64,000 nucleotides of DNA from Bacteroidia bacterium (lineage in GTDB: Bacteria > Bacteroidota > Bacteroidia > Cytophagales > Cyclobacteriaceae): contig JAUIAO010000011.1 of NCBI GenBank assembly GCA_030425425.1, positions 1 to 64,000 on the forward strand. The letters are read 5' to 3'. Numbering within the stretch: position 1 is the first letter of the stretch; each line of letters opens with the position of its first letter. Under the pieces are notes generated by a model. The model saw only the letters and a list, made by a program, of their open reading frames with translations, made no database searches and was not told the DNA's origin. This document shows positions 1,733 through 43,582 of this stretch, piece by piece. The position numbers and the translations under genes were made by a program.

Positions 1733-4700
1733 ATGAAGAAAGCTCAACAAACTTTTTTTACGAGGATACTGCTTCTCGCAGTGTTTGCTTCGTTCGCCTG
1801 GATAGGACAGGCTAATGCTCAGGACTGGGATGCTCCTGCGCTCAAATCTACTGATCCCGTTTCGGGCTCAGCGTACTACATTTATAACATTGGTTCGGAT
1901 GGGTTCCTTAACCAAGGTGGAGCCTGGTCAACACAGGCTGCAGTATCGCCATCACCAAGGAGAAATGCATCCACTTCATTGGTTTCCTGGACCGTAACCA
2001 ATGTGTCTGGCTCTGAGTGGACATTGAAATTGACAATTGATGGATCGCAATCTCAGCCTGGAGTAGATGATGATTTTGTAGCCTCGTTGGATGATGCTAA
2101 CGGTACAATTTTTACTGACCAGGGTTCTGGTTGGGGAGGACTTAACTGGACTGTTGCTGAAGTAGATGCTACAAACAATATTTATACACTTCAAGCACCA
2201 GGTACCTATACAAACTTCAATGCTTCAGCATATATGGGTACAGAATCAGCCACTGAATCCGGGAATAGGGGAATCGCCAATGTGGTACGTTGGAACCGCA
2301 CTTCTGGAGATGATTATGTCAAATGGCAATTTATCACAACTGCTGATTACGATCTGTACCTCGCCAAAATTGAGTTGGACAGATATATGAGATATGCGAA
2401 ATCTTTAGGTGGTATTGACTTAACAGATTATATAACTGACTATAATTCGGATGTTTTAGCTACTATTCAATCAGCATCCACAGACTTGTTGGCTGAATTA
2501 GCGCCAGTGGATGCAACATCATCGATTGCAAACAATAGTTTTGAAACCAATGGATTTGAAAACTGGACCAATAGTGGTATGGCTACTCAAACAAATGATC
2601 CTAATTGGACTGGAATCACCAAAGATGGCACTGTCTATGGTGAAAAATGGACAAGCTCGAATGGAAATCTAGCCGCTGCTTCTATTACTCAAAGCCTGAG
2701 TGGTTTAACTAATGGCTTATATGAATTGAAAGTTTCGGCTTTTGCATTGCAGCAAGGTGGCTCAAATCCTTTGCATACTAATTGTTTTGCGTTTGCTGGT
2801 GCAAAATCTGCAGAAGTACACGCGGGTAAAGAGTATATTGTTGATATGATCGCTGTAACTGATGGCACCTTAAATATTGGTTACAAACTGGAAGGTGCAA
2901 TTGCCGCAAACTACACAGGGTTTGATAATTTTAAACTGACATATTACGGTGCTCCTTCAGTAAGTGTAGATGCGACATTGTCTGACTTACAAGTAGATGG
3001 CACTACAGTAGATGGATTTGATGCAGCATCTTACACTTATAATGTTTTCGTTCCTGAAACCACAACAAGTGTATCAATATCCGCTACTGAAAATGATGGA
3101 AATGCTTCTTCTACCGGTACAGGAACTTTAAACCTTACAGATAAATTTGGGACGACAGATGTAGTGGTAACTGCAGAAGACGGATCAACTCAGATCACCT
3201 ATACTGTAAATGTTTGGGCGGATGATTTTTCGCAATTATATCCGTCTAAAACCAACCTAGTTCCAGACCCAAGGTTTACAAGTCTTGATAATTTTGGTGG
3301 ATGGGAATGGACTGGTGGTGCGCGTGCACTCAACTCTGATCCATCCAACTCTTATAATGGAAAAACAAGTGGAGCTATTGCAAGTGGAGTTGATGGTACT
3401 GCCTCTTTGGATGTTGTTTTGAGTGGAAAGCTTGAAGCAGGAAAGACTTATCGTGCACATGCTAAGGTTTATGCAACCTCCGGTGTGTTTAATTTTGGTG
3501 CCTTCAACGCAGATATTTCTCCTAATGAAATTCAAACCACTAAGAATGGAGAATGGGAAGAAATGAACTTTGTTTTTACTGTAGGCTCTGGAGTAAACAC
3601 TTCAAACAGCGGTCTTTATTTTAATAATTATAATAGAGATGGACGAGATGGATTTATTGATAACTGGGAATGCTATGAGGTAAACAATGATCAATCTATG
3701 ACATTGGCTGCTTCTACAAGCGGAACGGATTGGACCGTAAACTCCACAAGTGCTACTACTTTCGAGGTATTGGTAGATCCAGGAACTACAACTGTGGATT
3801 TAACAGCAACCGCAAATGGCGCTAATGCAACAAAATCTGGAGACGGAACCGTGAATGTTACAGATTCGCCAATTACTATTACAGTGACTGCTGAGAGTGG
3901 TGAGGCTACTGACTATACCGTGACAATATCTTCACAATCAGGTGATGCTTCTCTGAAATCTCTTAGCGTCGTGGGTGTGGTAGAGCCAGCATTCGATCCT
4001 ACGGTTACAACATACACTGTATATCTGCCTATGAATACGACTACAGTTGATCCCACAGTTGAAGCTAATAATGCTAATATTCAAGGGATAACCGGAGATG
4101 GAGAAGTCGATCTAAGTCAATCACAATCCTCATCAATTGAGGTTACAGCTGAAAATGGTAGTACTGAAACATATACCTTGAACTATTTTGTTGTGACAGA
4201 AAAGCACAATTATACCTTCGATGATGGAAATGCAGAAGATAATATTGGTGGACTAAATGGTACGGTACATGGAAATGTGATTTTCAAAAATGGCCGTGCA
4301 ATTGTACCTCCTGCAGCAAATGGTGCTGGTCAGGATTACGGATATATTTCATTAGATGGACAAACATTAGATTTAGCAAGTTATAATGGATTGTCTCTTG
4401 AGGCATTTATTCAGGCCGGTGATGCTACCAATGATTGGTATACAATGTTGTATTATTTTGGAAATAATGGAGCAGATTATCTTTTTAGCCAGATGACACA
4501 GGCAGGTGATAATGTTTCTAATGTAAAAACTACAACTCCTGGTGGTGAAAAAGCTGCTCTTTCTACTCGAATTGATGACGGTAATCTTCATCATGTAATG
4601 GCTGTTTTAACGAACACAACTTTGAGTTTCTATGTGGATGGTACTTTGGCTCAGTCAGTAACTGGCTCAGGATTAATTTCTGCAATTGGCACACAGTTCG

Positions 4701-6265
4701 CTAATTTGTTTAGAGGTCCAGACAGATGGACTGATGATAATTGGATTGGATCGTTTTTTGAATTCTCGATTTACGAAGGAGCTGTAGATGCTGCTTACGT
4801 TGCAGATAGAGCATCAGATTTTAAATCTACGGTTGTATATGAAGATGGAGCATGGAGCGCTACACCTACTGCAAATGATATCGCGTTAATAAAAGATGAT
4901 TTGACGATCGGTAGCACAGATGTCGTTACAGTTGGTGACGTCATTGTAGGCGCCGATGCTAATTTAACGGTTGAGTCTGGAGGATCTTTGATTATTATGG
5001 GAGGTGCTTCTGGTGATGCCACAATCAAAAGAAATACTACTGGTAATGGTGGCTACAGCATCGTAGGAGCTCCAGTATCTGGTGCTGATCTTTCAGATCT
5101 TTCTGCTGATTACCTGTACACCTGGGATGGTTCATCCTGGTCTGTACCAAGTGGTACGATGGCTTCTGGAACCGGGTATTTTGTAGGGTATGATAATGCC
5201 ACACCTGAAGTTTCTTTGTCTGGTGCCTTGGTTTATGGTGATCAATCAGTTGCAGTATCAACTGCCGGTGATGCCTTCAATCTGGTTGCAAATCCTTATG
5301 CAGCGTCTATCTCCATTGCGTCTTTCTTGAATGCCAACTCTAATATTAGCGATGCGGTTTATTTCTGGAATGATGGTGGAGCCAACAATGGATCTGATAG
5401 AGCAGGTGATTATGTCACCGTAAATGAAATTGGGTCTGTTGGGTCTGTTGATTTAGGTGATGGAGTAGCTGGTCAAAATACAACAGCTGCTAATACTGAT
5501 ATCGCTTCTAGTCAGGGTTTCTACGTGATGGCTACTGCTGACGGGAATGTGGATTTCACTCCTGACATGCAGACTGGTGGATCAAATGCGGATGACAACT
5601 TCTACAGAAAAGTAACTCAAACTTCTTTGAAATTAGCCTTGAGCGGTGCCCATTACAATGAAGTGCTATTTGGATTCAGAGCAGACGGGACAGAAGGAGT
5701 AGATCCGGCATTGGATGCACTGAAGAAAATTGGTAATGAAAACCTTGCTTTCTACTCGATCATCGAAGATCAGAAATACGCTATCCAGGGACTTCCAGAG
5801 CTAGGAGAACGCAGAATGATCTCATTAGGCTATGATGTGAAAGAAGCTGGTATGTACGAATTGTCTATTAAATCTTTTGAAGGGCTGTCTCAAGCATATG
5901 AAGTTTTAGCTCATTACAATGGAAAAACGTATAATCTCAGCAATAATGCAGCTTTGCTAAATCTTTCTAAGGGATCTGGAGTGATTCAATTGGAATTGCA
6001 GCAGGCCACTATCCTGGGTGCAACAGCACTATCATCATTTACGGTTTATGGAGCTGAGGGAGCGTTGAATATCAGTATTGATAAGTCTGTTAGTCAGGCT
6101 AATATTCAGATTATGGATATGAGTGGCAAGACTATTGAATTGTTTGAAGGTCAATCAATCAACAATGGTAAATGGTCTAAACAGCTGCGTCTACAGTCAG
6201 GTAGAGTCTACATTGTAAAAATTCAATCAAGAGATGGTGTTTTATCTCAAAAATTCATCTATTAA
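1733..6265 (+). CDS. Very large T9SS-secreted modular surface protein (cadherin-like, LamG, sorting domain)
   Basis: This 1510-residue protein has a signal peptide (cleavage near GQANAQ, residue 30). Modules in order: a beta-trefoil-like stretch (30-230), a carbohydrate-binding-like jelly roll (about 265-405), a cadherin-like beta-sandwich (412-494, ending in the typical VVVTAEDGS..YTV pattern), a second CBM-like domain (about 500-650), two more cadherin-like repeats (656-733 and 740-820), a LamG/concanavalin-like domain (825-1030), a module (about 1033-1420) shared with the T9SS protein at 40209, and a type A sorting domain (about 1425-1510, with IQIMDMSGKTIE and a KFIY end). No catalytic motif is visible, so a role in surface glycan binding or adhesion is inferred. 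It is probably co-transcribed with the PID-CTERM microprotein 21 bp downstream. Confidence 0.85.
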   Translation: MKKAQQTFFTRILLLAVFASFAWIGQANAQDWDAPALKSTDPVSGSAYYIYNIGSDGFLNQGGAWSTQAAVSPSPRRNASTSLVSWTVTNVSGSEWTLKLTIDGSQSQPGVDDDFVASLDDANGTIFTDQGSGWGGLNWTVAEVDATNNIYTLQAPGTYTNFNASAYMGTESATESGNRGIANVVRWNRTSGDDYVKWQFITTADYDLYLAKIELDRYMRYAKSLGGIDLTDYITDYNSDVLATIQSASTDLLAELAPVDATSSIANNSFETNGFENWTNSGMATQTNDPNWTGITKDGTVYGEKWTSSNGNLAAASITQSLSGLTNGLYELKVSAFALQQGGSNPLHTNCFAFAGAKSAEVHAGKEYIVDMIAVTDGTLNIGYKLEGAIAANYTGFDNFKLTYYGAPSVSVDATLSDLQVDGTTVDGFDAASYTYNVFVPETTTSVSISATENDGNASSTGTGTLNLTDKFGTTDVVVTAEDGSTQITYTVNVWADDFSQLYPSKTNLVPDPRFTSLDNFGGWEWTGGARALNSDPSNSYNGKTSGAIASGVDGTASLDVVLSGKLEAGKTYRAHAKVYATSGVFNFGAFNADISPNEIQTTKNGEWEEMNFVFTVGSGVNTSNSGLYFNNYNRDGRDGFIDNWECYEVNNDQSMTLAASTSGTDWTVNSTSATTFEVLVDPGTTTVDLTATANGANATKSGDGTVNVTDSPITITVTAESGEATDYTVTISSQSGDASLKSLSVVGVVEPAFDPTVTTYTVYLPMNTTTVDPTVEANNANIQGITGDGEVDLSQSQSSSIEVTAENGSTETYTLNYFVVTEKHNYTFDDGNAEDNIGGLNGTVHGNVIFKNGRAIVPPAANGAGQDYGYISLDGQTLDLASYNGLSLEAFIQAGDATNDWYTMLYYFGNNGADYLFSQMTQAGDNVSNVKTTTPGGEKAALSTRIDDGNLHHVMAVLTNTTLSFYVDGTLAQSVTGSGLISAIGTQFANLFRGPDRWTDDNWIGSFFEFSIYEGAVDAAYVADRASDFKSTVVYEDGAWSATPTANDIALIKDDLTIGSTDVVTVGDVIVGADANLTVESGGSLIIMGGASGDATIKRNTTGNGGYSIVGAPVSGADLSDLSADYLYTWDGSSWSVPSGTMASGTGYFVGYDNATPEVSLSGALVYGDQSVAVSTAGDAFNLVANPYAASISIASFLNANSNISDAVYFWNDGGANNGSDRAGDYVTVNEIGSVGSVDLGDGVAGQNTTAANTDIASSQGFYVMATADGNVDFTPDMQTGGSNADDNFYRKVTQTSLKLALSGAHYNEVLFGFRADGTEGVDPALDALKKIGNENLAFYSIIEDQKYAIQGLPELGERRMISLGYDVKEAGMYELSIKSFEGLSQAYEVLAHYNGKTYNLSNNAALLNLSKGSGVIQLELQQATILGATALSSFTVYGAEGALNISIDKSVSQANIQIMDMSGKTIELFEGQSINNGKWSKQLRLQSGRVYIVKIQSRDGVLSQKFIY

Positions 6266-6286: not shown

Positions 6287-6460
6287 ATGAAAGATAAAAT
6301 CATAAAAATCGCAACAATACTACCGGTGATGCTTTTGGTAGTAGCACCTGCAATGGCGCAGGGTGCACCCCCGGCAACACCAATTGATGGTGGCTTGAGC
6401 TTACTCTTGATTGCAGGAGGCGCTTATGGAGCCAAGAAAATCTATGACAAGAGAAAATAA
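6287..6460 (+). CDS. PID-CTERM microprotein (57 aa), partner of the T9SS giant upstream
   Basis: ATG at 6287, TAA at 6460. The 57-residue product has a signal peptide (KDKIIKIATILPVMLLVVAP, cleavage near AMA|QG), the motif APPATPIDGG, a hydrophobic segment (LSLLLIAGGAYG) and a basic tail ending KKIYDKRK. This matches the PID-CTERM sorting-domain class annotated in Bacteroidota. Its tripartite motif-helix-basic layout resembles exosortase or sortase recognition tails, but here almost nothing else is left after signal-peptide removal. It starts 21 bp after a T9SS giant and is followed by a terminator. A near-identical copy lies at 43415 after the related T9SS protein, so the pairing is unlikely to be chance. 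Its function is unknown; an anchor, chaperone or signalling peptide are possibilities. Confidence 0.85.
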   Translation: MKDKIIKIATILPVMLLVVAPAMAQGAPPATPIDGGLSLLLIAGGAYGAKKIYDKRK

Positions 6461-6472
6461 TCGTAAATTCAC

Positions 6473-6502
6473 AAAGGCTGCTGCTTGCAGCAGCCTTTTT
6501 TT
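6473..6502 (+). terminator. Strong Rho-independent terminator after the PID-CTERM gene
   Basis: An 11-12 bp perfect stem (AAAGGCTGCTG / CAGCAGCCTTT, short CTTG loop) is followed by seven Ts. It begins 12 bp after the microprotein stop and closes the two-gene unit starting at 1733. Confidence 0.9.
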
Positions 6503-8207: not shown

Positions 8208-11087
8208 ATGGAGATTCAAATCAAATCAAAGTCAAAGTTTTACTATCTGATGCTTCTAGTCTTTTGTGTATCTACCGTAACAGGGCAGGTGACACAGGAT
8301 AACCTTTTTGATTTGGCAGATGTGCAATTACTCGATGGGCCTTTCAAGTCTTCGATGGAATTGAACGTAGAAGTTTTATTGAAGTATGATGTAGATCGAT
8401 TGCTAGAGCCATATCTGAAAGAAGCAGGTTTGACACCTAAAGGTGCACCATATACCAACTGGGATGGTTTGGCCGGGCATGTGGGAGGTCATTATTTATC
8501 GGCATTGGCGATTCACTATGCCAGTACTGGAGATTCTCGTCTCAAAGATCGGCTTGATTATATGATAGCAGAACTGGAAACCTGCCAAAATGATAATGGA
8601 TATGTAGGTGGTGTGCCTAATAGCGATGCGGTATGGCAAGGGCTTTCAAATGGAAACTTTACGAGTTATTACAATGCCTGGGTTCCCTGGTATAACCTCC
8701 ATAAAACATACGCAGGACTGAGAGATGCCTGGTACTATACAAATAATGAGAAGGCTAAGGAGATGTTTCTGAAGCTTTGTGATTGGGGGATCACTACACT
8801 TCAGCAACTGTCAGACGCTCAAATTCAGGAAATGCTGGATGTGGAATTTGGAGGTATGAATGAGGTGTATGCAGATGCTTACAGAATGTCTGGTGATTCC
8901 AAATATTTGAATACTGCCATGAAGTTTACACATAATAGAGTATTTAATACTTTATCAAAAGGAGTGGACAACCTTGATAATATGCATGCTAATACACAGA
9001 TTCCCAAATTTGTTGGGTTTGCCAGTGTTGCATTGGCAGATCAGGCACAAACAACTTATTATCAGGCAGCAGATAATTTTTGGAACACTGTAGTGGAAAA
9101 TAGGACACTTGCACTCGGTGGAAACAGTCGACGAGAGCACTTTCCTTCTGTGAATGCCTACCGGGAGTTTCTGGAAGAGCGAGAAGGACCCGAAAGTTGT
9201 AATACCTACAACATGCTGAAGCTTTCTTCACAATTGCATCAGGTGAAACCTGAAGTGAAATATGTAGATTATTATGAAGGGGCATTGTTTAATCACATTT
9301 TGTCTACTCAGCACCCCGAACACGGAGGATATGTATATTTCACACCAGTTATGACCATGCACTATAGGGTTTATTCTGCACCCAATGAGGCCATGTGGTG
9401 TTGTGTGGGGACAGGATTGGAAAACCATGGAAAACACGCACAATTCATTTATTCCAAAACCGAGAACGAATTATTTGTGAATCTTTTCATCGCTTCTGAA
9501 TTGAATTGGGAGGAAAAAGGAGTGAAGGTGATACAAACAACAAATTTCCCGGAAGAGAATACGACAAAGCTTACTTTTTCCGGTTCTGCTGATTTCAAAC
9601 TAAACCTTAGATATCCGTCTTGGGTAGCAGAAGATTCGCTACAAATTTTTATCAATGGAGCTGAAATCCCGGTTTATGTAGGCCCTGGAGAATACTTACC
9701 TATCAATATGGACTGGCAAGATGGTGATGTTGTTGAGATGAAATTCCCAATGCAGTTTTCTGTGGAGGAAATGCCAAACGTGCCAGAATATGTAGCCATC
9801 AAATACGGCCCTATTCTTTTGGGGGCCAAAACCAGCACAGAAGGTTTGACTGGTCTGGTTGCAGATGATGGGAGATGGTCACACATTGCTTCAGGCAATT
9901 TGATGGGCGTATATGAATCGCCTATTATTATCAGTAAGCGTGAGGAGATTGCAGGCAAGATCCAACCAATCGAAGATCAGCCTTTGTCATTCGACGCATC
10001 AGCTCTGTTTCCTGACCAGTCTAAATATGAAGAATTGGTTTTAGAGCCATTCTATAAGATTCATGATAGCCGATATATGATGTATTTTTTGGAGCTTGAT
10101 CCGGATGATTCAGAGGAGATCATTGCAGAACTGAAGCAGCACGAATTGGAAAGACTCATCACTGATGCCCGTACGATTGATTATGTGGGCACCGGTGAAC
10201 AGCAACCAGAAAAGGATCATAATATGCAGACCGAAAACTCTAGCTCTGGATTGCACGCCAATGAATATTGGAGAGACGCTTCGAGTGGCGGATATTTTGC
10301 CTATGTTTTGGCCACCGAAGAAATGACAGATCTTTCCCTGATGGTAAGGTATTGGGGAAATGAGACCGGTAGTCGAAGGTTTGATATCTTGATTGATGAG
10401 GAGGTATTGATAAGAGAAAATTTAGTAGGAAAATGGAACGTGGATGAGTTTGTCAATGTAGAGTATCCTATTGATACGAATATGCTCATCGGAAAAGATC
10501 AGATTACGGTAAAATTCCAACCTGTGGCTGGCAATACTGCCGGAGGGGTGTTTTACGTGAGATTATTGAAAAATCAATTATCATCAGTTGCGACCTTATC
10601 TGACATATCCTTAGATGGTTCACAGCTAATGGACTTTTCCGCAGATCAATATGAATACGACGTGACCTTGGATGCACCACATCTTCCAGTGCCAGAAGTA
10701 GAGGCATTGCCATATGACGAAAATGCCAGAGTAGAAATCCGTCAGGCTAAAAACCTACAAGGAGAATCAACTATTACGGTGACTGCCGAAGATCAGGTTA
10801 CAACTTTGACTTATACAATAAACTTTTACTCTAAGCCTCTTCAATCTTCACCTCAGCAAGAAGTAGTTGTCTTCCCCAATCCTGCAAGCGCTGAAATAAG
10901 TGTAAAAGCGCCACTTATTCAAGTCATGACCTTATCTTGCATCGATATGAGTGGTAGAAAGGTGTTGAGCAAAGAGATCAAAGCAGGTGATCAGGCATTG
11001 GATATCAGTCATTTACAGTCAGGTACATACCTGATTTTATTAGAAGGAAAAAACTACAGCACTTCAACAAAATTTATTAAAAAGTAG
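8208..11087 (+). CDS. Beta-L-arabinofuranosidase (GH127/GH146 type) with T9SS sorting domain
   Basis: Predicted to release beta-L-arabinofuranose from arabinose-rich glycans at the cell surface. The 959-residue protein starts at ATG 8208, which gives a clean signal peptide (FYYLMLLVFCVSTVTGQ); the frame extends upstream only by a TTG. The (alpha/alpha)6 core carries the zinc/cysteine site of these families: Glu329 and Cys331 in GPESCNTYNML, and Cys398-Cys399 in WCCVGTG, where the first cysteine of the pair is the nucleophile in characterised GH127 enzymes. The NTYNMLKLS context favours GH146 over GH127. Beta domains follow, including a DUF6805/DUF4986-like region (about 660-790), a cadherin-like repeat (about 795-875) and a type A sorting domain (VVFPNPASAEISV, end TKFIKK). 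The next gene starts 1 bp after the stop. Confidence 0.9.
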   Translation: MEIQIKSKSKFYYLMLLVFCVSTVTGQVTQDNLFDLADVQLLDGPFKSSMELNVEVLLKYDVDRLLEPYLKEAGLTPKGAPYTNWDGLAGHVGGHYLSALAIHYASTGDSRLKDRLDYMIAELETCQNDNGYVGGVPNSDAVWQGLSNGNFTSYYNAWVPWYNLHKTYAGLRDAWYYTNNEKAKEMFLKLCDWGITTLQQLSDAQIQEMLDVEFGGMNEVYADAYRMSGDSKYLNTAMKFTHNRVFNTLSKGVDNLDNMHANTQIPKFVGFASVALADQAQTTYYQAADNFWNTVVENRTLALGGNSRREHFPSVNAYREFLEEREGPESCNTYNMLKLSSQLHQVKPEVKYVDYYEGALFNHILSTQHPEHGGYVYFTPVMTMHYRVYSAPNEAMWCCVGTGLENHGKHAQFIYSKTENELFVNLFIASELNWEEKGVKVIQTTNFPEENTTKLTFSGSADFKLNLRYPSWVAEDSLQIFINGAEIPVYVGPGEYLPINMDWQDGDVVEMKFPMQFSVEEMPNVPEYVAIKYGPILLGAKTSTEGLTGLVADDGRWSHIASGNLMGVYESPIIISKREEIAGKIQPIEDQPLSFDASALFPDQSKYEELVLEPFYKIHDSRYMMYFLELDPDDSEEIIAELKQHELERLITDARTIDYVGTGEQQPEKDHNMQTENSSSGLHANEYWRDASSGGYFAYVLATEEMTDLSLMVRYWGNETGSRRFDILIDEEVLIRENLVGKWNVDEFVNVEYPIDTNMLIGKDQITVKFQPVAGNTAGGVFYVRLLKNQLSSVATLSDISLDGSQLMDFSADQYEYDVTLDAPHLPVPEVEALPYDENARVEIRQAKNLQGESTITVTAEDQVTTLTYTINFYSKPLQSSPQQEVVVFPNPASAEISVKAPLIQVMTLSCIDMSGRKVLSKEIKAGDQALDISHLQSGTYLILLEGKNYSTSTKFIKK

Positions 11088-11088
11088 T

Positions 11089-13152
11089 ATGTCATTGAGC
11101 TTATCTTCAGAATTCAGCAAACTGTTTAACAGCCAATTCAGGTTTGTGGTATTTGTAGCCATTTTACTGGCAAGTAATATCAAACCAATATCTGCCCAAA
11201 ACTGGCCAGGAGGGATGCACGATCCTTCCAGTATTGTGAAAGAAGGAGACAGGTACTGGGTTTTCGGTACAGGAGACGGTATTTACTCTATGTATTCTGA
11301 TGATTTGATGACCTGGCAGTCTGGAGCTACACCTTTTACAAATGGTGATTATCCGGCCTGGATCGATAAGTACACTAATCAAAAAGACCCCAATCATGCT
11401 GATGGCTTTTCAGGATTCTTCTGGGCTCCGGATATCATTCACATGAATGGAAAATACTATTTGTACTATTCTGCTTCTATGTGGGGCACTGCCTTTTCAT
11501 GTATTGGACTGGTGGTGAATAAAACATTGGATCCTACCAGTCCGGATTATAAATGGGAGGACCAGGGAGATATCGGAATCTATTCTCCGCGCTCGGGTTG
11601 GAGTATCAATGCGATAGATGCGGCAATGATGAGAGGCCCGGATGGGAGAATTTGGATGACTTATGGATCATTCAATCGTGATGGAATCATGGTGACAGAA
11701 GTGGATTCTGTTAGCGGTAAACCAATTGGTAATACAGTAAGCGTTGCTAATTCCTGGACTGGAGGAAATAATTATGGTGAAGGCGAAGGGGGACATATGC
11801 TCTATCGCGATGGCTATTATTACATGATTTACAACAAAGGTGGTTGCTGTAATGGTATTGCAAGTTCTTATTATATGGTCATTGGAAGATCTGAAAACCC
11901 ACAGGGACCATTTGTAGACAAAGAAGGAAAGAACATGCGAGCAGTAGGGTCACCTAGTGGTGGCACGCTGATTTTTGAACATGATGATTCCAGAGGGTAT
12001 GACGATCGATATTTTGGACCGGGACACTTTGGGTTATTTACTGAGAACGGAGTTGATCATGTAACTTTTCATTATTACAATCAAAATGGTTTTTATCCGA
12101 GTGCAGAAGCCAACAATCAAGGTGGTCCAACACTAGGGACGGCATTTCTGGAATGGGGTGAAGACGGCTGGCCTTCTATTTCTTTCAATTATTTGCAGCA
12201 AGGAGTATATCGGTTGACCAATGTGAATAGCCAAAAAAATCTGGATCTAAGAAATCAAAGTGTTGATTCAGGAACATTTCCTTATCAATATGCAGCGGAT
12301 TCTACAAGCGATACACAGCTTTGGTATTTTACGCCGCTGGGAACAGGGGAGTATACCATAAGAAGCTGGGCAGATACTACGAAGTATCTGGAAACTGTAG
12401 CACCTGATTATGATTTGGTGATCAAGCTGACTGATAATTATACAGGTTCAGTCAATCAGAAATGGAGATTAGCTCAGGATAATGAAGGGGATATATTGAT
12501 CTACCCATCTATAAAGGATAATGTGATGGAAGTGGCCAATAATACTTCGGCAGATTACCGGGTAGGTCTCTCAAGGTATGATGGTGAAAATGGTCAGCAG
12601 TGGAAACCAACTTTGGTTTATGGATGGCCTGCAAGAATTGTAGTGGACAAGGATGAAATCAATGTGACATCTGAATTATCCACCGATACGATATTTATTG
12701 AATCAAACACCTATTGGGAAATAACCATTACTGATCCTGCATGGGTAAGTGCCAGTGCTACTTCCGGTCTTGGAGATGCGGAGGTGATCATAACCATTTC
12801 AGAAAACACCAAAGAAATAAGTCGCTCTTCTGTAATGGGGATACAAGCAATCAAAGGCACCACAGAGATTATATTCGTGAATCAGGAAGCTTATGATCCT
12901 GCAACAGTAACCTCTGCGGATAGGAGCCCGGTGACTAAAATCTCACCAAACCCTACTACGGGGATGGTCACTCTATCTGGTATTGTCCCTTTTAGAGTGG
13001 AGATTTGGAATTTATCAGGTCAAAAACTTCTCACTGAATCAAAGGTTAGTGAAAATCACGAATTAAACCTGACCCAACTTCCAAAAGGAGTTTATGTACT
13101 GAAATGCTTTTCAGAGAATAATACCTGGTCGCAGAGACTTATCAGGAAATAA
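11089..13152 (+). CDS. GH43 arabinanase-like enzyme with ricin-like, BACON-like and T9SS domains
   Basis: Predicted endo- or exo-acting alpha-L-arabinan hydrolase of 687 residues. A signal peptide (end near PISAQ) leads into a five-bladed GH43 domain (about 40-370). The catalytic base is in MHDPSSI, FFWAPDI is typical of the family, the middle Asp is in NAIDAAMM, and the acid Glu is probably in YGEGEGGHML. NAIDAAMMRGPDGRIWMTYG resembles arabinan endo-1,5-alpha-L-arabinosidases. Then come a ricin-like beta-trefoil (about 373-515), a BACON-like domain (about 523-600) and a sorting domain (ISPNPTTGMVTLSG, end RLIRK). It is coupled to the upstream arabinofuranosidase gene (1 bp gap). The exact linkage specificity is not settled by sequence reading. 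Confidence 0.88.
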   Translation: MSLSLSSEFSKLFNSQFRFVVFVAILLASNIKPISAQNWPGGMHDPSSIVKEGDRYWVFGTGDGIYSMYSDDLMTWQSGATPFTNGDYPAWIDKYTNQKDPNHADGFSGFFWAPDIIHMNGKYYLYYSASMWGTAFSCIGLVVNKTLDPTSPDYKWEDQGDIGIYSPRSGWSINAIDAAMMRGPDGRIWMTYGSFNRDGIMVTEVDSVSGKPIGNTVSVANSWTGGNNYGEGEGGHMLYRDGYYYMIYNKGGCCNGIASSYYMVIGRSENPQGPFVDKEGKNMRAVGSPSGGTLIFEHDDSRGYDDRYFGPGHFGLFTENGVDHVTFHYYNQNGFYPSAEANNQGGPTLGTAFLEWGEDGWPSISFNYLQQGVYRLTNVNSQKNLDLRNQSVDSGTFPYQYAADSTSDTQLWYFTPLGTGEYTIRSWADTTKYLETVAPDYDLVIKLTDNYTGSVNQKWRLAQDNEGDILIYPSIKDNVMEVANNTSADYRVGLSRYDGENGQQWKPTLVYGWPARIVVDKDEINVTSELSTDTIFIESNTYWEITITDPAWVSASATSGLGDAEVIITISENTKEISRSSVMGIQAIKGTTEIIFVNQEAYDPATVTSADRSPVTKISPNPTTGMVTLSGIVPFRVEIWNLSGQKLLTESKVSENHELNLTQLPKGVYVLKCFSENNTWSQRLIRK

Positions 13153-13313: not shown

Positions 13314-15464
13314 ATGAGGAAATCTGTAATTAGTTTCATAATATCCCAATTCTTGTTTTTTAATTTATTGTTCGCTCAATCCGATGATTTTCATAATTGG
13401 GCCCTTACCCCGCCAATGGGATGGAATAGCTGGGATTGCTTCGGGCCATCTGTGGTGGAGAGCGAAGTGAAACAGAACGCGGATTACATGGCTGAAAATC
13501 TTCTGGAATTCGGTTGGGAATACGTGGTGGTCGATATCAGATGGTATGTAGATAACCAGACCACTGGTCATTATAATGCCTATAATAATTCTGACTTTAT
13601 ACTTGATGAATATGGTCGATACTTACCTTCTCCTATACGTTTTCCGTCTTCTGTAGATGGAGCAGGCTTTAAGCCACTTGCCGATTATGTTCATGGATTA
13701 GGACTGAAATTTGGGATTCATATCATGAGAGGAGTTCCTAAAGAAGCAGTTTCCAAAAAATTACCAATCAAAGGGACCTCCATTACAGCTGATCAGATTT
13801 ACTCCACGGCTTCTGAGTGTACCTGGCTGCAAGACAACTGGACAGTACTTAAGAACCGAGAAGGGGCTCAGGAGTACTATAATTCAATTTTGGATCTATA
13901 TGCATCATGGGGAGTGGATTATATCAAAGTAGATGACCTTTCCAGACCATATCATTCGGATGAGATAGAAATGCTGAGAAATGCGATTGATCAGACTGGA
14001 AGACCTATCGTGCTGAGCATGTCACCTGGAGCTACACCTATTGATGAGCATGAGCATGCGAAAAATCATGCAAACCTGTGGAGGACAATTGATGATTTCT
14101 GGGATAACTGGAGCCAGTTAAACTATTCGTTTGAAAAATGCGCAGAATGGGCGCCATATATCTCACCTGGTTCATGGCCAGATGCGGACATGTTGCCGAT
14201 GGGACATTTGTCTATTAGAGGTGAAAGAGGAGCTGATCGCTATACCAACTTCACTGAGCCAGAACAATATACGCTGATGACTCTATGGACCATCTTCAAA
14301 TCACCATTAATGTTTGGTGGACATATGCCGGACAATGATGAGTTTACCAATTCGCTTCTCACAAATAAGGAAGTGCTGCAAATGCATGCTACTTCTATTA
14401 ATAACCTGGAGATTTCCAACGAAAACAATGTGATTATGTGGGCCGCTGATGATCCATTCACAGCGGATAAATATGTAGCAGTTTTCAATAATGCAGGTGA
14501 TGGTTTTGTTACTACAGAAAACTTACTTTATAGAAGTGGAACAGTCTCCAGACTTACAGATGGAAATGGAGTAGACATTGATTTGGAGATTCCGAAAGGC
14601 AGTACTGAATTGTATCTGATAGTCAATGATGGAGGAGATGGTTATAGCTGTGATCATGCTGACTGGATCAACCCGATCATTTATGATGAAAGCGGGAATG
14701 CAACGAGCTTGCTTGATTTGACATGGGAATCGGCTTCTATAGGTTGGGGAGAAATCGGAATTAACAAAAGTGTTTCCGGTGGCAATTTAGTTGTCCAAGG
14801 CCAGACTTATGAAACAGGTATTGGTACCCACGCCAAATCTTTGATCAAATACATCATTCCAGATAATATTACAAGGTTCACGGCATTTGCAGGATTAGAT
14901 CAGGTAGGGTTGAATCAAGGATGCGGATCAACAATTGAATTTATGATTTCTGTAATAGATCCTACGCCAGACCTCAATAACTCGGAAAGTGCTGAAGTAG
15001 CTATTGACGTGGAGTCGTTGGGTTTTGCAGAATGTGAAGTACGAGATTTGTGGAAACAGGAAGATTTAGGAGCTTTTGCAGGAAGTGATTTCGTTTCCTC
15101 AGTAGTGGAACATGGAGCAAATCTTTATCGTTTTTCAGCGGTTGGTAGATCTACTGATATCGAAGTAGTTGTAAAAACTTCATCAGATAAAATATCAATC
15201 ATAGATTCGCTAGAGCTGACAGTCGATATCACGCCAGTAGGATCAGCCACTGCTATCCCAACTGGTTTTATCCATTTTTATCAAGGTGATTCTTTGATCG
15301 CTTCTCAGGAATATGTTTTTGGAACTTCACCTAAGATTAGCCTTCCGCCTTTGACAGAGGGAGATTATGCGTTTTCAGCTACCTATAGCGGGGATACGTA
15401 TTACGAAACTACTGCCTCAGAAACGATCAATGTGTTAGTAAAAAAAAAGCGCAGGAGGAAATAA
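13314..15464 (+). CDS. GH27 glycosidase (alpha-galactosidase or beta-L-arabinopyranosidase), frame broken before its sorting domain
   Basis: A clan GH-D retaining exo-glycosidase. Signal peptide ends near LLFAQ. GH27 signatures are TPPMGWNSWDCFG, VVVDIRWY, KFGIHIMRG, the nucleophile Asp207 in YIKVDDLSRP, and an acid/base candidate at Asp260/261 in RTIDDFWDNW. PGSWPDADMLPMG also fits. The GH27 domain is followed by an NPCBM-like domain (about 455-610, with GIGTHA) and a Big_3-like Ig domain (about 620-710). In this frame the protein ends in a basic tail (VKKKRRRK) directly after an A9 run. The missing type A sorting domain continues in the -1 frame at 15449. As read, the product would lack its T9SS export signal. 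Neighbouring arabinose-cleaving enzymes make beta-L-arabinopyranosidase activity as plausible as alpha-galactosidase. Confidence 0.88.
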   Translation: MRKSVISFIISQFLFFNLLFAQSDDFHNWALTPPMGWNSWDCFGPSVVESEVKQNADYMAENLLEFGWEYVVVDIRWYVDNQTTGHYNAYNNSDFILDEYGRYLPSPIRFPSSVDGAGFKPLADYVHGLGLKFGIHIMRGVPKEAVSKKLPIKGTSITADQIYSTASECTWLQDNWTVLKNREGAQEYYNSILDLYASWGVDYIKVDDLSRPYHSDEIEMLRNAIDQTGRPIVLSMSPGATPIDEHEHAKNHANLWRTIDDFWDNWSQLNYSFEKCAEWAPYISPGSWPDADMLPMGHLSIRGERGADRYTNFTEPEQYTLMTLWTIFKSPLMFGGHMPDNDEFTNSLLTNKEVLQMHATSINNLEISNENNVIMWAADDPFTADKYVAVFNNAGDGFVTTENLLYRSGTVSRLTDGNGVDIDLEIPKGSTELYLIVNDGGDGYSCDHADWINPIIYDESGNATSLLDLTWESASIGWGEIGINKSVSGGNLVVQGQTYETGIGTHAKSLIKYIIPDNITRFTAFAGLDQVGLNQGCGSTIEFMISVIDPTPDLNNSESAEVAIDVESLGFAECEVRDLWKQEDLGAFAGSDFVSSVVEHGANLYRFSAVGRSTDIEVVVKTSSDKISIIDSLELTVDITPVGSATAIPTGFIHFYQGDSLIASQEYVFGTSPKISLPPLTEGDYAFSATYSGDTYYETTASETINVLVKKKRRRK
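15440..15464 (+). other. Slippery A9 run with A AAA AAG heptamer and -1 frameshift point
   Basis: Nine As (15440-15448) followed by G contain, in the zero frame, the heptamer A AAA AAG (15443-15449), the same slippery sequence used in E. coli dnaX. The zero-frame stop TAA lies 13 bp beyond it (15462-15464). A -1 slip joins the Ig-like domain to an intact T9SS sorting domain. It may be a programmed or transcriptional slippage site, a real deletion, or a homopolymer sequencing error. Confidence 0.6.
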
Positions 15465-15706
15465 CAGGCGTAGAAGAAGTCGAAACGATTGATCTGATTT
15501 ACCCTAATCCGGTGAGCGATGTTTTGAAGTTAAACCTGGAACGCAATAACAACTATCATTATTCCATTGCTGATTTGTCTGGTAGAATAATGAAAACCGG
15601 ATATTGTATAAACGAGATTGTAGTGGACAAATTAGAGCCTGGGGTTTATCTGATTCACATTGGCAAACCTGATGAAGTGCTCAATACCAAATTCATAAAG
15701 AATTAA
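15449..15706 (+). CDS. T9SS type A sorting domain of the GH27 protein, in the -1 frame
   Basis: This 85-codon frame begins right at the A9 run and reads AQEEITGVEEVETIDL, then IYPNPVSDVLKLNLE, and ends with GVYLIHIGKPDEVLNTKFIKN. That is a complete type A sorting domain. It has no credible start of its own (the first ATG comes well inside the domain), so it is the C-terminus of the GH27 gene displaced by one base. Conservation of the whole domain with no further stops means that any disabling mutation would be recent, or that the frame is still used through slippage. Confidence 0.75.
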   Translation, partial: AQEEITGVEEVETIDLIYPNPVSDVLKLNLERNNNYHYSIADLSGRIMKTGYCINEIVVDKLEPGVYLIHIGKPDEVLNTKFIKN

Positions 15707-40208: not shown

Positions 40209-43200
40209 ATGCTCCAACTAACAAAAACCTCTCTTCTCGCTCTATTATTACTCCTGGCTGGAGTAGTATGGGCACAATCCGATATAGAAGTATCGGGCAG
40301 CAATTTCCCTGCAAATGGTACTTACACCCCAAATGGCACTGTAAACGGAAAGCCATACTATGAAGGTCCGGTAGTCACTTATCAGTATGCCATTCAGTGG
40401 GATGACGCCAGTCAGTCCTGGGTGCTTTGGGCCGATTATTTAGGGATTATCCAGTTGTCTTATTTCTCCGCTGCAGTAGACACTCCCGAACCACCTGCAG
40501 CAGGCTGGGTAGCTGGTGGGCCTATAGGAACCAACTTTGCTAGCTACACAGTGCCTGCCTTCACAGGTGGAGTATATACTGTGGTAGACAATGATCCTCC
40601 TACCATAGTTGCCCTAAGTCCTGCCAATGATGCTACTGACGTAGATCCAACCATGACATTTAGTGTGGAATTCAGCGAAAGCATCAAAAAAGGAACAGGA
40701 AATATCAATGTCTACAAGTCTAATGGAGAACTTTTAGAGGCAATTGATGTCACAAAATCCTCAAACTCAATTACCATTTCTGGTAAAACACTTACGTTTA
40801 AAGTGGGTGGATTTAGCTCAAATGAAACGCATTATATCCTCATTGAAAATGGTGCTATTCTCGATGCCTATGACAATGCATTCGAGCTCAGTGATCCTAC
40901 GGTTTGGGAATTCACTTTCCAGGAAGTAACTGTTACCGTCACAGGAGCAGGTAATCCGAACTTTGATGGTGTATATACGGCTTCCGGATCGGACAATGGT
41001 CATGTAGTTTATTACAATGGAGATTATAGAATCTATTATGAACGACATAAACTAGCCTGGGCAATCGAAAACACCAGAGACTCTACTGAAGGAGTGTATC
41101 TATCAGCTACCGTTTCGGACATTACAGCACAGCAGCCTCATGACGTGGGCTACGAGCCCATGCCTGTGATGCAGTCGAAGAAATTGCCGGCAATTGCACC
41201 CGGCCCTGAGTTGTCGGGGTTTGTAGAAGCACAAGATTTAAAAGTCAGACTCACTCATCCTGCGGATGATTCTGATTACTTTCCTACGGATGGAGTGTTG
41301 GAGTTTCGGTTCAATAAAAACATCCAGAAAGGTTCGGGAAATATCTATATCAATCTGGATTACACCACCACCAGAGCGGAGACTATTGATGTTGCTGGTT
41401 CCAATGTTGTCATTGATGGAAAGTCCATATTTATAGATCCTGTAAATGATTTTACTGACTATCAGCGATACAATGTCACATTTGACAATGGTGTGATCGA
41501 AGATGCAGATGGAAATGCATGGGCCGGAATAGCCACCTGGGCAGCTGGCGGAATAGATTTTAGAGCAAGAACTCTGGATGTAATAGTAGAAGGTGCAGGA
41601 ATGCGCGAGTTTAATCTTGGATTGGAAAAAACGGCTAATCAAGGATATTCAGGATATAGTGTTTATCTATATAAGGATAATAACATCAATCAGTGGATCA
41701 TGTACATTACCTACCAGAGCAGTGCATTCTTATTCACTTATGTGAACTATAGCAATACCACCAACCCTCCAGCTACCGGATGGGTGTCTGCAGCGACTAC
41801 CGCTCTGGTACAACCTACTTTGCCCGCCCCAAATCCCGCCCCTACTTTGAGAGGAGCAGTTTCCACCTACGAGAGTCCTGCAGACGTGATTTGGGATGGT
41901 ACAGATTGGAGTAATGTCACTGGCCCCTCAGAAACTGATGTGGTTCAATTGACGGAAAGTCTGACCATTACAGAAGATATGACACTAAATACTGTTTATA
42001 TCGATCCGTCTGCTGATCTGGTTGTGAGTGGTGGTGCAACATTGACCATTAATGGTACAGTATATGCCAATGGCGACTTAACCATAGAATCTGGATCTTC
42101 TTTGATCACAGGACCGAATACAGTTTTCAACGGTAAAGTTCTCGCCAAGCGAAATACGAGATATGCAGACGCACGATATTCTTTCACTGGCTCACCAATG
42201 ATGGAAAGCAACTTGATTGCTGGCTATCATCTGGGAGATTACGTGTATAGCTATGATGAGACTGTAGCTTTCGGAACTGATGGTTTGGACAGGTGGGAAG
42301 ATGCGAAGGCCTCAATCTTGAAGCCAGGCAATGGTTATGCTCAGGCAGGTGTCCAGGAGGTGTTATTTTACGGTCTTCCGAATACGACTGATGTTACTGT
42401 GACAGGCACTTACACAGAAGATACAGAAGATGCCAATGAGGGATGGAATCTGGTTGCAAATCCGTTCCTTGCTGCTTTGGATGTAGAATCATTTTTGTTG
42501 GATAATACCAATACAACCGGAGCACTATATATCTGGGATGATAACGGCTCCAATCTCGGACGTGGTTCAAATAGTGATTACATAGTTGTCAATGCATCCG
42601 GAGCAACTTCTAATAGTTCAGCCGGGAACTCTACCAGATTCAATGATCATATTGGAAGTATGCAAGGGTTCTTTGTTCAGCTGTCTGATGAAACTAATAC
42701 AGATATCGTTTTCGAGACTGATCAGCGAGTATTGGGCAATAATACAGACGATCATTATTTCAGATCAGCTACTGAGTTGAGAGGAAGATTAAGAATAAAC
42801 CTGACGAATCAGGATGGACTTTTTAAGCAAACACTCGTCGCCTGGAATGATGCTGTGAGTGATGATCAGATCAACCAAATGTATGACGCTCGTGTATTTA
42901 ATTCCAATGCTGAATATTCAGTTTTCACTTACAAATTGGGACAGCCGCTGGCTATTCAGACTATTTCGATGAATAAGGAAAGCGTTGAAGTAGGTATGAA
43001 TATAGCCTCTGAGGGTGTTTATGAATTGTCTCTGGAAAACTCGGAATATGCTGGTGGTGTGATTTTAATTGATAGGCTCAATGGGCAGAAAGTTGATTTG
43101 ACCATGGGTAACTATGAATTTACGTCAGGATCGGGCATGATTGATAATCGGTTCGAACTAAGGTTCATCCAGAGCATACTTGCAGTTGATCAATCTGTTC

Positions 43201-43403
43201 AAAATGACCGGATTTTTGTAGCTGGCGATATCCTCCATGTGATACCGGTGAAGCCTACAACTTATCGGCTTTATGATCTTTCAGGGCAATTGATGAGTGT
43301 AGTATCAATAGAATCTCATTCAAAAATTGATTTAGCGGGATATCAGAGAGGGTTGTATTTGATCTCTGATGGGCATTCCACTACTAAGTTTATCATCGAC
43401 TAA
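40209..43403 (+). CDS. Large T9SS-secreted protein with Ig-like (Big_5) domains, paired with a PID-CTERM microprotein
   Basis: A 1064-residue protein with a signal peptide (LLALLLLLAGVVWAQ). It contains three copies of a small domain of the type GSNFPANGTYTPNGTVNGKP (about 18-115, 240-330, 455-545) interleaved with two Big_5-like Ig domains (about 125-238 and 340-450, PANDATDVDPTMTFSVEFSE). A C-terminal module (about 560-985: laddered beta strands, then KRNTRYADARYSFTGSPM and EGWNLVANPFLAALD) is shared with the protein at 1733. The type A sorting domain ends in STTKFIID. No catalytic site is seen; adhesion or surface binding is inferred. A PID-CTERM gene starts 11 bp downstream. Confidence 0.85.
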   Translation: MLQLTKTSLLALLLLLAGVVWAQSDIEVSGSNFPANGTYTPNGTVNGKPYYEGPVVTYQYAIQWDDASQSWVLWADYLGIIQLSYFSAAVDTPEPPAAGWVAGGPIGTNFASYTVPAFTGGVYTVVDNDPPTIVALSPANDATDVDPTMTFSVEFSESIKKGTGNINVYKSNGELLEAIDVTKSSNSITISGKTLTFKVGGFSSNETHYILIENGAILDAYDNAFELSDPTVWEFTFQEVTVTVTGAGNPNFDGVYTASGSDNGHVVYYNGDYRIYYERHKLAWAIENTRDSTEGVYLSATVSDITAQQPHDVGYEPMPVMQSKKLPAIAPGPELSGFVEAQDLKVRLTHPADDSDYFPTDGVLEFRFNKNIQKGSGNIYINLDYTTTRAETIDVAGSNVVIDGKSIFIDPVNDFTDYQRYNVTFDNGVIEDADGNAWAGIATWAAGGIDFRARTLDVIVEGAGMREFNLGLEKTANQGYSGYSVYLYKDNNINQWIMYITYQSSAFLFTYVNYSNTTNPPATGWVSAATTALVQPTLPAPNPAPTLRGAVSTYESPADVIWDGTDWSNVTGPSETDVVQLTESLTITEDMTLNTVYIDPSADLVVSGGATLTINGTVYANGDLTIESGSSLITGPNTVFNGKVLAKRNTRYADARYSFTGSPMMESNLIAGYHLGDYVYSYDETVAFGTDGLDRWEDAKASILKPGNGYAQAGVQEVLFYGLPNTTDVTVTGTYTEDTEDANEGWNLVANPFLAALDVESFLLDNTNTTGALYIWDDNGSNLGRGSNSDYIVVNASGATSNSSAGNSTRFNDHIGSMQGFFVQLSDETNTDIVFETDQRVLGNNTDDHYFRSATELRGRLRINLTNQDGLFKQTLVAWNDAVSDDQINQMYDARVFNSNAEYSVFTYKLGQPLAIQTISMNKESVEVGMNIASEGVYELSLENSEYAGGVILIDRLNGQKVDLTMGNYEFTSGSGMIDNRFELRFIQSILAVDQSVQNDRIFVAGDILHVIPVKPTTYRLYDLSGQLMSVVSIESHSKIDLAGYQRGLYLISDGHSTTKFIID

Positions 43404-43414
43404 AAAAGACTAAA

Positions 43415-43582
43415 ATGAAAAATTCAAAGAAAATATTCGCGTATATCACATTGCTTCTGATAGTTGGACCTGTTTTGGCTCAGGGAGCACCACCAGCCAC
43501 ACCTATTGATGGAGGTCTTAGTTTATTGTTAGTTGCCGGAGGAGCATATGGCATTAGAGCAATACATAAGAAAATGAAATGA
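43415..43582 (+). CDS. PID-CTERM microprotein (55 aa), second copy
   Basis: ATG 43415, TGA 43580-43582. Signal peptide (KKIFAYITLLLIVGPVLA|Q), then GAPPATPIDGG, hydrophobic LSLLLVAGGAYG and a basic tail IRAIHKKMK. Over the 24-residue core from QGAPP to GAYG it differs from the copy at 6287 by one residue (Val for Ile), whereas 15 of the 23 identical positions use a different codon. This shows selection on the peptide rather than recent copying of DNA. It lies 11 bp after a T9SS giant and ends 13 bp from the convergent histidine kinase stop, with no clear terminator. Confidence 0.85.
   Translation: MKNSKKIFAYITLLLIVGPVLAQGAPPATPIDGGLSLLLVAGGAYGIRAIHKKMK

Follow-up and report, generated by a model that had tools for sequence, protein, structure and literature searches.

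The closest described relatives of the locus studied here belong to two protein-sorting systems. In EpsH-type exosortase systems, the PEP-CTERM proteins combine a signal peptide, a short motif, a hydrophobic helix and a basic tail, and the exosortase is encoded near polysaccharide genes, as outlined in sections of two papers (PMC12188702, PMC7468200). In the T9SS, type B cargo has a helper, PorP/SprF, encoded directly behind this one cargo class, as described in parts of PMC10202324 and PMC12618676. PorP/SprF forms a barrel in the outer membrane that serves type B tails. RemA and RemZ of F. johnsoniae are described as type A substrates. The RemA tail serves both anchoring and release and the AmyB tail serves release (excerpt of PMC12618676), and a section of PMC10202324 calls the choice of type A cargo for attachment or release unsolved. 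In F. johnsoniae, XrtF and its neighbour are needed for biofilm and surface colonisation (excerpt of PMC10936215), and the passages on XrtF in that paper and in PMC12188702 report its substrates as not known. Our literature search covered sources other than subscription papers and preprints. It gave no paper on PID-CTERM, and the passages found on exosortases and the T9SS treat the two as separate and do not mention the pairing described below, in which a putative exosortase substrate goes with both.

We analysed a 64,000-nt stretch of DNA (the window) from a source genome of 5.85 Mb in 121 contigs (G000). An earlier note on the window had pointed to a 57-residue protein at 6287–6460 made up of a signal peptide, the APPATPIDGG motif, one hydrophobic segment and a basic tail, and the translation bears this layout out. 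The order of microprotein 1 is a lysine-rich start, a hydrophobic stretch to AMA, QGAPPATPIDGG, a short hydrophobic segment and a basic end. By inspection, both window microproteins have the layout of an exosortase substrate (signal peptide, motif, hydrophobic segment, basic tail). Neither contains any cysteine, as a lipoprotein would at its signal-peptide cleavage site. The motif is PIDGG and not PEP, and NCBIfam matches up to E 0.1 include no PEP-CTERM model. The locus also differs from PEP-CTERM systems in that almost no cargo precedes the tail and in its linkage to T9SS cargo.

The curated families NF046080 (PID_CTERM), NF046081 (XrtX) and NF046082 (XrtX-associated membrane protein) form a comparable set. 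Microproteins 1 and 2 score 47.2 and 43.4 bits with NF046080 (curated cut-off 26). The source genome has one match to the exosortase model TIGR04178, and this is XrtX with 195.5 bits (NF046081 cut-off 170). The gene overlapping XrtX gives a weak NF046082 match of 29 bits, against a cut-off of 75. Microprotein and exosortase thus pass the first two cut-offs, and the surroundings of XrtX contain polysaccharide genes, including glycosyltransferases and a flippase-type polysaccharide biosynthesis protein. The comparison with the NF046080 set used family names and scores, and the evidence for the T9SS link, the module and the XrtF-linked variants comes from the present analysis. A precedent for a microprotein as exosortase target is PExPT-CTERM (TIGR04200), the target of XrtJ, with a model of 57 positions. 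Microprotein 1 is not a member of this family (14.4 bits, E 0.024, cut-off 40). Our preferred reading, which we consider rather probable, is that the microprotein is a minimal, exosortase-processed substrate that acts as partner of RemA/RemZ-type T9SS cargo and is used in placing or anchoring adhesins. The features of the window are listed in Table 1.

Table 1. Features of the two microprotein loci in the window
Feature	Position	Strand	Basis
PID-CTERM microprotein 1, 57 aa	6287..6460	+	translation, NF046080 score
Signal-peptide-like segment, residues 1-24, likely cleavage before Q25	6287..6358	+	inspection of translation
PIDGG motif, residues 32-36	6380..6394	+	translation
Hydrophobic segment and basic tail, residues 37-57	6395..6457	+	translation; NF046080 match = residues 31-55
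Terminator-like hairpin 3' of microprotein 1	6473..6498	+	hairpin scan
Partner 1, T9SS type A cargo, 1510 aa	1733..6265	+	TIGR04183 26.7 bits (cut-off 23); Cadherin-like, Laminin_G_3
Pre-tail module of partner 1	4838..5962	+	homologous in all 11 linked cargos; profile A5 (own seed) matches 5045-5953
Divergent type A C-terminal sorting domain of partner 1, without YPNP start	5963..6262	+	TIGR04183 from profile position 10
PID-CTERM microprotein 2, 55 aa, 11 nt after partner 2	43415..43582	+	NF046080 score
Partner 2, T9SS-type cargo, 1064 aa, two Big_5 stretches	40209..43403	+	Pfam; TIGR04183
Pre-tail module of partner 2	41976..43100	+	profile A5 (own seed) matches 42171-43154

Eleven PID_CTERM matches are found in the source genome, all in open frames of 56–70 aa. 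Identity among these copies is 91% in the 20-residue core and only 19% in the signal-peptide region. Where the core amino acid is identical, 66% of codons differ synonymously, which indicates that the copies are old and selected. This agrees with the earlier note, which had inferred strong selection on the peptide from the copies at 6287 and 43415: these share 23 of 24 core residues, with 8 codons identical, 15 synonymous and 1 non-synonymous. Among the 18 sequences of profile A6, the P, D and both G of the motif are invariant and the I is kept in at least 90%. A chance ORF is ruled out by the conservation, recent duplication or gene conversion by the synonymous divergence between copies, and an ordinary cargo with a sorting tail by the near absence of sequence before the tail.

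The same note had taken PID-CTERM to be a tail known from longer proteins, and here the scan of 395 genomes of the phylum disagrees. Among the matches listed, NCBIfam PID_CTERM is nearly always a microprotein, and all but one lie in open frames of at most 200 aa, where length refers to the open frame and the length of an extracted microprotein depends on start-codon choice. The only long frame among them with a PID-like end has 995 aa (G166, L098 1518–4502) and shows no Pfam match. A CTERM protein can be almost only tail, and a protein of such size may escape gene callers. The mature product had been assumed to be the 32-residue tail itself. If the exosortase acts, it may rather be a short Pro-rich peptide released from the tail.

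All 11 copies in the source genome start 2–26 nt after the stop codon of a large, co-oriented ORF. These partner ORFs range in length from 706 to at least 3086 aa, and the ends of all 11 resemble a T9SS type A tail. The proposed link to a T9SS protein directly upstream thus holds throughout this genome, with TIGR04183 matched on 1733–6265. In the Pfam scan, partner 1 shows Cadherin-like and Laminin_G_3 (LamG) domains and a Por_Secre_tail match below its cut-off. Partner 2 scores 22.3 bits with TIGR04183 in one scan, just below the cut-off of 23, and 27.8 bits in the genome-wide tail scan. At E 1e-3 the genome contains 128 TIGR04183 tails, including those of 9 of the 11 linked cargos. These nine rank low (22.7–33.7 bits); their matches begin at profile position 7–14 in eight cases and at position 1 in one, and by sequence the usual YPNP start is missing from all 11 linked tails. 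The scan found no terminator-like hairpin in the 21-nt gap between partner 1 and microprotein 1. A hairpin only after microprotein 1 is what one would expect if this gene closes a transcript shared with its partner. The arrangement is similar to type B cargo and PorP/SprF in having a gene directly behind one cargo class, with the difference that a 57-aa microprotein stands behind a type A-like module cargo in place of an outer-membrane barrel behind a type B one. A PorP/SprF-type partner of type B cargo was rejected, since the tails match the type A model TIGR04183 and the partner has 57 aa.

Ahead of the tail, the 11 linked cargos of the source genome align over about 400 residues or more with 25–53% identity. 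In other genomes, a profile of these 11 modules matches 74 of 91 upstream genes that are linked and none of 23 non-linked ones, which is the test outside the seed. In the source genome itself the enlarged profile A5 matches 16 genes, the 11 linked ones with the highest scores and five others, the top rank of the linked genes being partly by construction as they are among the seeds. The five others (L252–L256) have no microprotein in the 500 nt downstream, which counts against the model. Compared with the PDB, profile A5 finds RemZ (8gl8_D, E 3.7e-51), RemA (8gl6_D, E 5.4e-48) and, weakly, Mfa5 (6to1, E 1.6e-7); a single window module sequence found no relative there. In RemA and RemZ of F. johnsoniae the homologous region lies near the C-terminus. 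The module of partner 1 matches no Pfam or NCBIfam family at E 0.01, and the 24 module members scanned gave no NCBIfam family and one weak Pfam match (Big_4, in one member). Linked BLAST hits place 101 of 102 linked upstream proteins in one cluster, a result prone to chaining on which we do not rely. Judged by profile comparison, the usual partner of the microprotein is a T9SS cargo with a module homologous to RemA/RemZ.

Across the 395 phylum genomes, PID_CTERM is present in 62 (59 above the family cut-off), in a scan that scored up to 20 candidates a genome and gives presence, not number; TIGR04178 is present in 143. The earlier note had suggested looking for co-occurrence with a specific sortase or exosortase, and every one of the 62 PID-positive genomes has TIGR04178, compared with 143/395 overall. 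All 62 also have SprA, the T9SS translocon. PID_CTERM is thus restricted to genomes with both systems: 62/117 with exosortase and SprA, 0/26 with exosortase only (all one family), 0/187 with SprA only and 0/65 with neither. The genomes are related and not independent, which inflates Fisher values, and the tables within families are a better guide than these phylum-wide counts. Among SprA-positive genomes of family f24, PID is found in 31 of 35 with an exosortase and in none of 10 lacking it. The numbers are very small in f1 (2/5 versus 0/4) and f2 (2/2 versus 0/1). In at least 8 of the 62 genomes a PID gene and the exosortase are no more than 5 kb apart, where about 0.4 would be expected from assumed average sizes, and in seven of these the distance is within 0.8 kb. 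The exosortase is above the XrtX cut-off in 44 of the 62.

The module follows a similar distribution. At E 1e-10 it occurs in 96/117 genomes with exosortase and SprA, 25/187 with SprA only and 0/26 with exosortase only, in a scan that scored up to five candidates a genome and reports presence, not number. It is present in 60 of the 62 PID-positive genomes. In exosortase-negative genomes, A5 gives no match in G387, G076 and G320 and two in G061. Several observations count against the model: the 25 SprA-only genomes with a module, the two PID-positive genomes without one (G273 and G391), two XrtX genomes without PID_CTERM (G147 and G380), and 81 of the 143 exosortase-positive genomes without a PID_CTERM match, 55 of which have SprA.

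Some loci lie at the edge of these counts. At E 10 clearly unrelated matches appear as well, and 9 of 14 control genomes also gave matches. In three f1 genomes (G146, G186, G049; L076, L077, L079), PISG-type microproteins with E 0.008–0.017 to PID_CTERM stand behind module genes, about 5–10 kb or less from the exosortase; these genomes are counted here as PID-negative. G118 has two exosortases, one XrtF and the other nearer XrtX (154.5 bits, below the cut-off). At a distance of 4 kb from the latter, a microprotein of PIQG type follows a module cargo. L081, from the exosortase-positive G080 with no PID_CTERM at E 1e-3, has two adjoining ORFs ending in CPID and a hydrophobic segment. An XrtX frame in G309 (C1:1848040–1848516) contains an internal TAG.

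Linkage to T9SS genes across genomes had been named as a check in the earlier note, and it is found. Among the matches listed, 128 distinct microproteins from 51 of the 62 PID-positive genomes were collected, and 102 of them directly follow a co-oriented gene with a T9SS tail, with a median gap of 74 nt and at least one such pair in 38 of the 51 genomes. As upstream gene we used the longest ORF whose end falls in the 500 nt before the microprotein, a rule by which some pairings may be wrong. At E 0.01, TIGR04183 matches 99 of 111 distinct same-strand upstream C-termini and 9 of 100 other neighbouring ORFs; these controls are 100 of 121 ORFs and include 13–18 kb stretches of the T9SS-rich source genome. 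The 12 upstream genes without a tail match were assigned from their sequences and other family matches, and the figure of 102/128 rests on this. Two of the 12 are PorV, the T9SS shuttle. In family f36, PID microproteins lie 252–421 nt behind a PorV gene (L141 and L178, in G388 and G328). The 26 microproteins without upstream T9SS cargo count against the model; some of them adjoin the exosortase. The 128 do not include 13 loci that the sequence pattern missed (L098, L140, L151–L156, L169–L173). Among these, L140 is a PISGG form, L151–L156, L172 and L173 are also behind T9SS-like tails, for L098, L169 and L171 this is not clear, and L170 is a doubtful case.

Named genomes yielded 217 relatives in a scan; we retained 80, all in frames below 200 aa. 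The nearest are a MAG titled Rickettsiales and Marinoscillum, followed by Hymenobacter, Pontibacter, Fodinibius, Segetibacter, Pedobacter and Chitinophagaceae and Bacteroidales MAGs. For 71 of the 80 loci at least 600 nt of upstream sequence is available, and the RemA/RemZ-type module is present upstream in 55 of these. The loci were counted by module, since the sorting-domain profile, built from linked genes, is weak on the source-genome type (41/71). At least 4 of the 80 repeat contigs of the phylum set, and the named set is thus not wholly independent. The Rickettsiales bacterium NP5 MAG carries Marinoscillum-like PID loci (L257, L268, L269, L271, L275, L280, L282, L284), and its label may be wrong. 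The microprotein–cargo partnership is well supported by these data.

Weak PID_CTERM matches in 49 exosortase-positive genomes led beyond the PIDGG model to a divergent set in family f7, which is probably Flavobacteriaceae, with g15 probably Flavobacterium. Among the 31 exosortase-positive f7 genomes, PID_CTERM matches occur in 8. Profile A3, built from 15 divergent microproteins, finds a match at E ≤1e-3 in 29 of the 31 and in none of 9 exosortase-negative ones; in two of the nine, long frames match less well, at E 0.02 and 0.05. XrtF is above cut-off in 30 of the 31. The exception, G324, has another exosortase and also lacks an A3 microprotein at this threshold. The PID-like microprotein is therefore present in 29 of 30 XrtF-positive f7 genomes (missing in G375) and in 0 of 10 XrtF-negative ones, and outside the A3 seed in 14/15 versus 0/10. 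The module is found in 30/30 versus 2/10. The 10 XrtF-negative genomes are mostly of other genera; nine lack TIGR04178 (three of these were also searched for XrtF) and the tenth is G324. The co-occurrence makes the divergent f7 microprotein a candidate substrate of XrtF. This form accounts for only part of the 81 exosortase-positive genomes without a PID_CTERM match. At the 29 f7 loci, 20 microprotein genes are convergent with a gene which we take to be ribE, usually followed by what we take to be pdxA, by sequence; five are behind T9SS-like tails and four are at neither. As f7 copies are mostly at this ribE-like locus and some others are beside the exosortase, co-transcription with cargo is not essential, and the f7 copies away from any cargo suggest that the microprotein may act in trans.

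In the working that we propose, the microprotein would be exported by Sec and its signal peptide removed, and a short Pro-rich peptide would then stay in the inner membrane, retained there by its PID-CTERM tail. That it is cleaved near PIDGG and that a short peptide is transferred is suggested by the layout and by the co-occurrence with an exosortase: the exosortase, XrtX here and XrtF in f7, would cut at or near PIDGG and hand the peptide to an acceptor (membrane or polysaccharide). Once modified, the peptide, in roughly equal numbers to the cargo, would help to place or anchor RemA/RemZ-type adhesins at the surface. One-for-one use is suggested by the near-identical copies behind each of 11 unlike cargos, as if the product were consumed and not catalytic. 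The same near-identical cores speak against recognition of individual cargos. With regard to the acceptor, a passage of PMC7468200 points out that VimA, which is required for the sugar anchoring T9SS cargo, has a match to a PEP-CTERM-associated family, and it speculates on a similar acceptor. PorU of P. gingivalis prefers to cleave between T/E/D/N and G/A/S (section of PMC10202324). This preference would also fit a cut between PID and GG, which we note as a coincidence.

The position of XrtX amid polysaccharide genes also suits a substrate that serves the exosortase on its own account, with the peptide attached to exopolysaccharide or lipid so that EPS is bound to the cell, and with the place behind T9SS adhesins reflecting co-regulation only. 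In other bacteria, exosortases and PEP-CTERM proteins tie EPS to cells (section of PMC12188702), and the f7 gene is usually not behind a cargo (20/29 at the ribE-like locus). Co-regulation by itself leaves the shared RemA/RemZ-type module of the partners unexplained, as it does the lack of PID in exosortase-only genomes (0/26, one family), and we regard this explanation as rather unlikely, the strongest of the three weighed here. A gene directly behind the cargo with one hydrophobic segment could instead encode a small membrane protein that stays uncleaved and serves as escort or chaperone in the inner membrane, delivering module cargo to the T9SS in the manner of the co-encoded PorP/SprF helpers of type B cargos (parts of PMC10202324 and PMC12618676). 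The exosortase in 62/62 genomes and the PIDGG–hydrophobic–basic layout point to processing, and the part before PID, which would be free for escort work, is short and variable between genera. Such an escort seems improbable to us.

The source-genome cargos share their whole C-terminal region, which resembles a mobile 3' cassette of module, sorting domain and microprotein, in which the microprotein could have been duplicated passively, with no role tied to the cargo. The core has been kept in old and selected copies despite the 66% synonymous difference, and the linkage persists in distant families and named genera, so that this passive origin is very improbable. Processing by exosortase, with a use in placing or anchoring RemA/RemZ-type adhesins, is the reading that we keep. 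The pairing of microprotein and adhesin in genomes with both exosortase and T9SS suggests that two protein-sorting systems may work together.

A more specific form of the processing model is put forward only tentatively, and we would sooner expect it to fail than to hold. Two sortases would act in series, the exosortase-made peptide would be a consumable surface anchor of RemA/RemZ-type adhesins, the exosortase product would set whether type A cargo is anchored or released, and the substrates of Flavobacterium XrtF would be such microproteins, often one per genome. In an excerpt of PMC10936215, F. johnsoniae strains mutated in xrtF or its neighbour agree with porU and porZ mutants in the whole row of phenotypes; those mutated in sprA or porV deviate from this row in a single assay. 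The row is also common to two mutants outside the T9SS and exosortase systems (same excerpt). The match with porU and porZ supports our preferred reading, and the match with these two counts against it. The pairing of a putative exosortase substrate with one cargo class makes the question of the XrtF target testable, and likewise the question of what decides whether type A cargo is attached or released.

Elsewhere in the window, further T9SS type A tails lie at 10869–11084, 12940–13149, 22550–22768, 27425–27646 and 38640–38861, without a nearby PID_CTERM match. A melibiase-like ORF at 13314–15464 (716 aa) has a lysine/arginine run at its end. A T9SS type A tail follows shortly after, in another frame, at 15497–15703, and may be split from the melibiase-like gene by a frame change.
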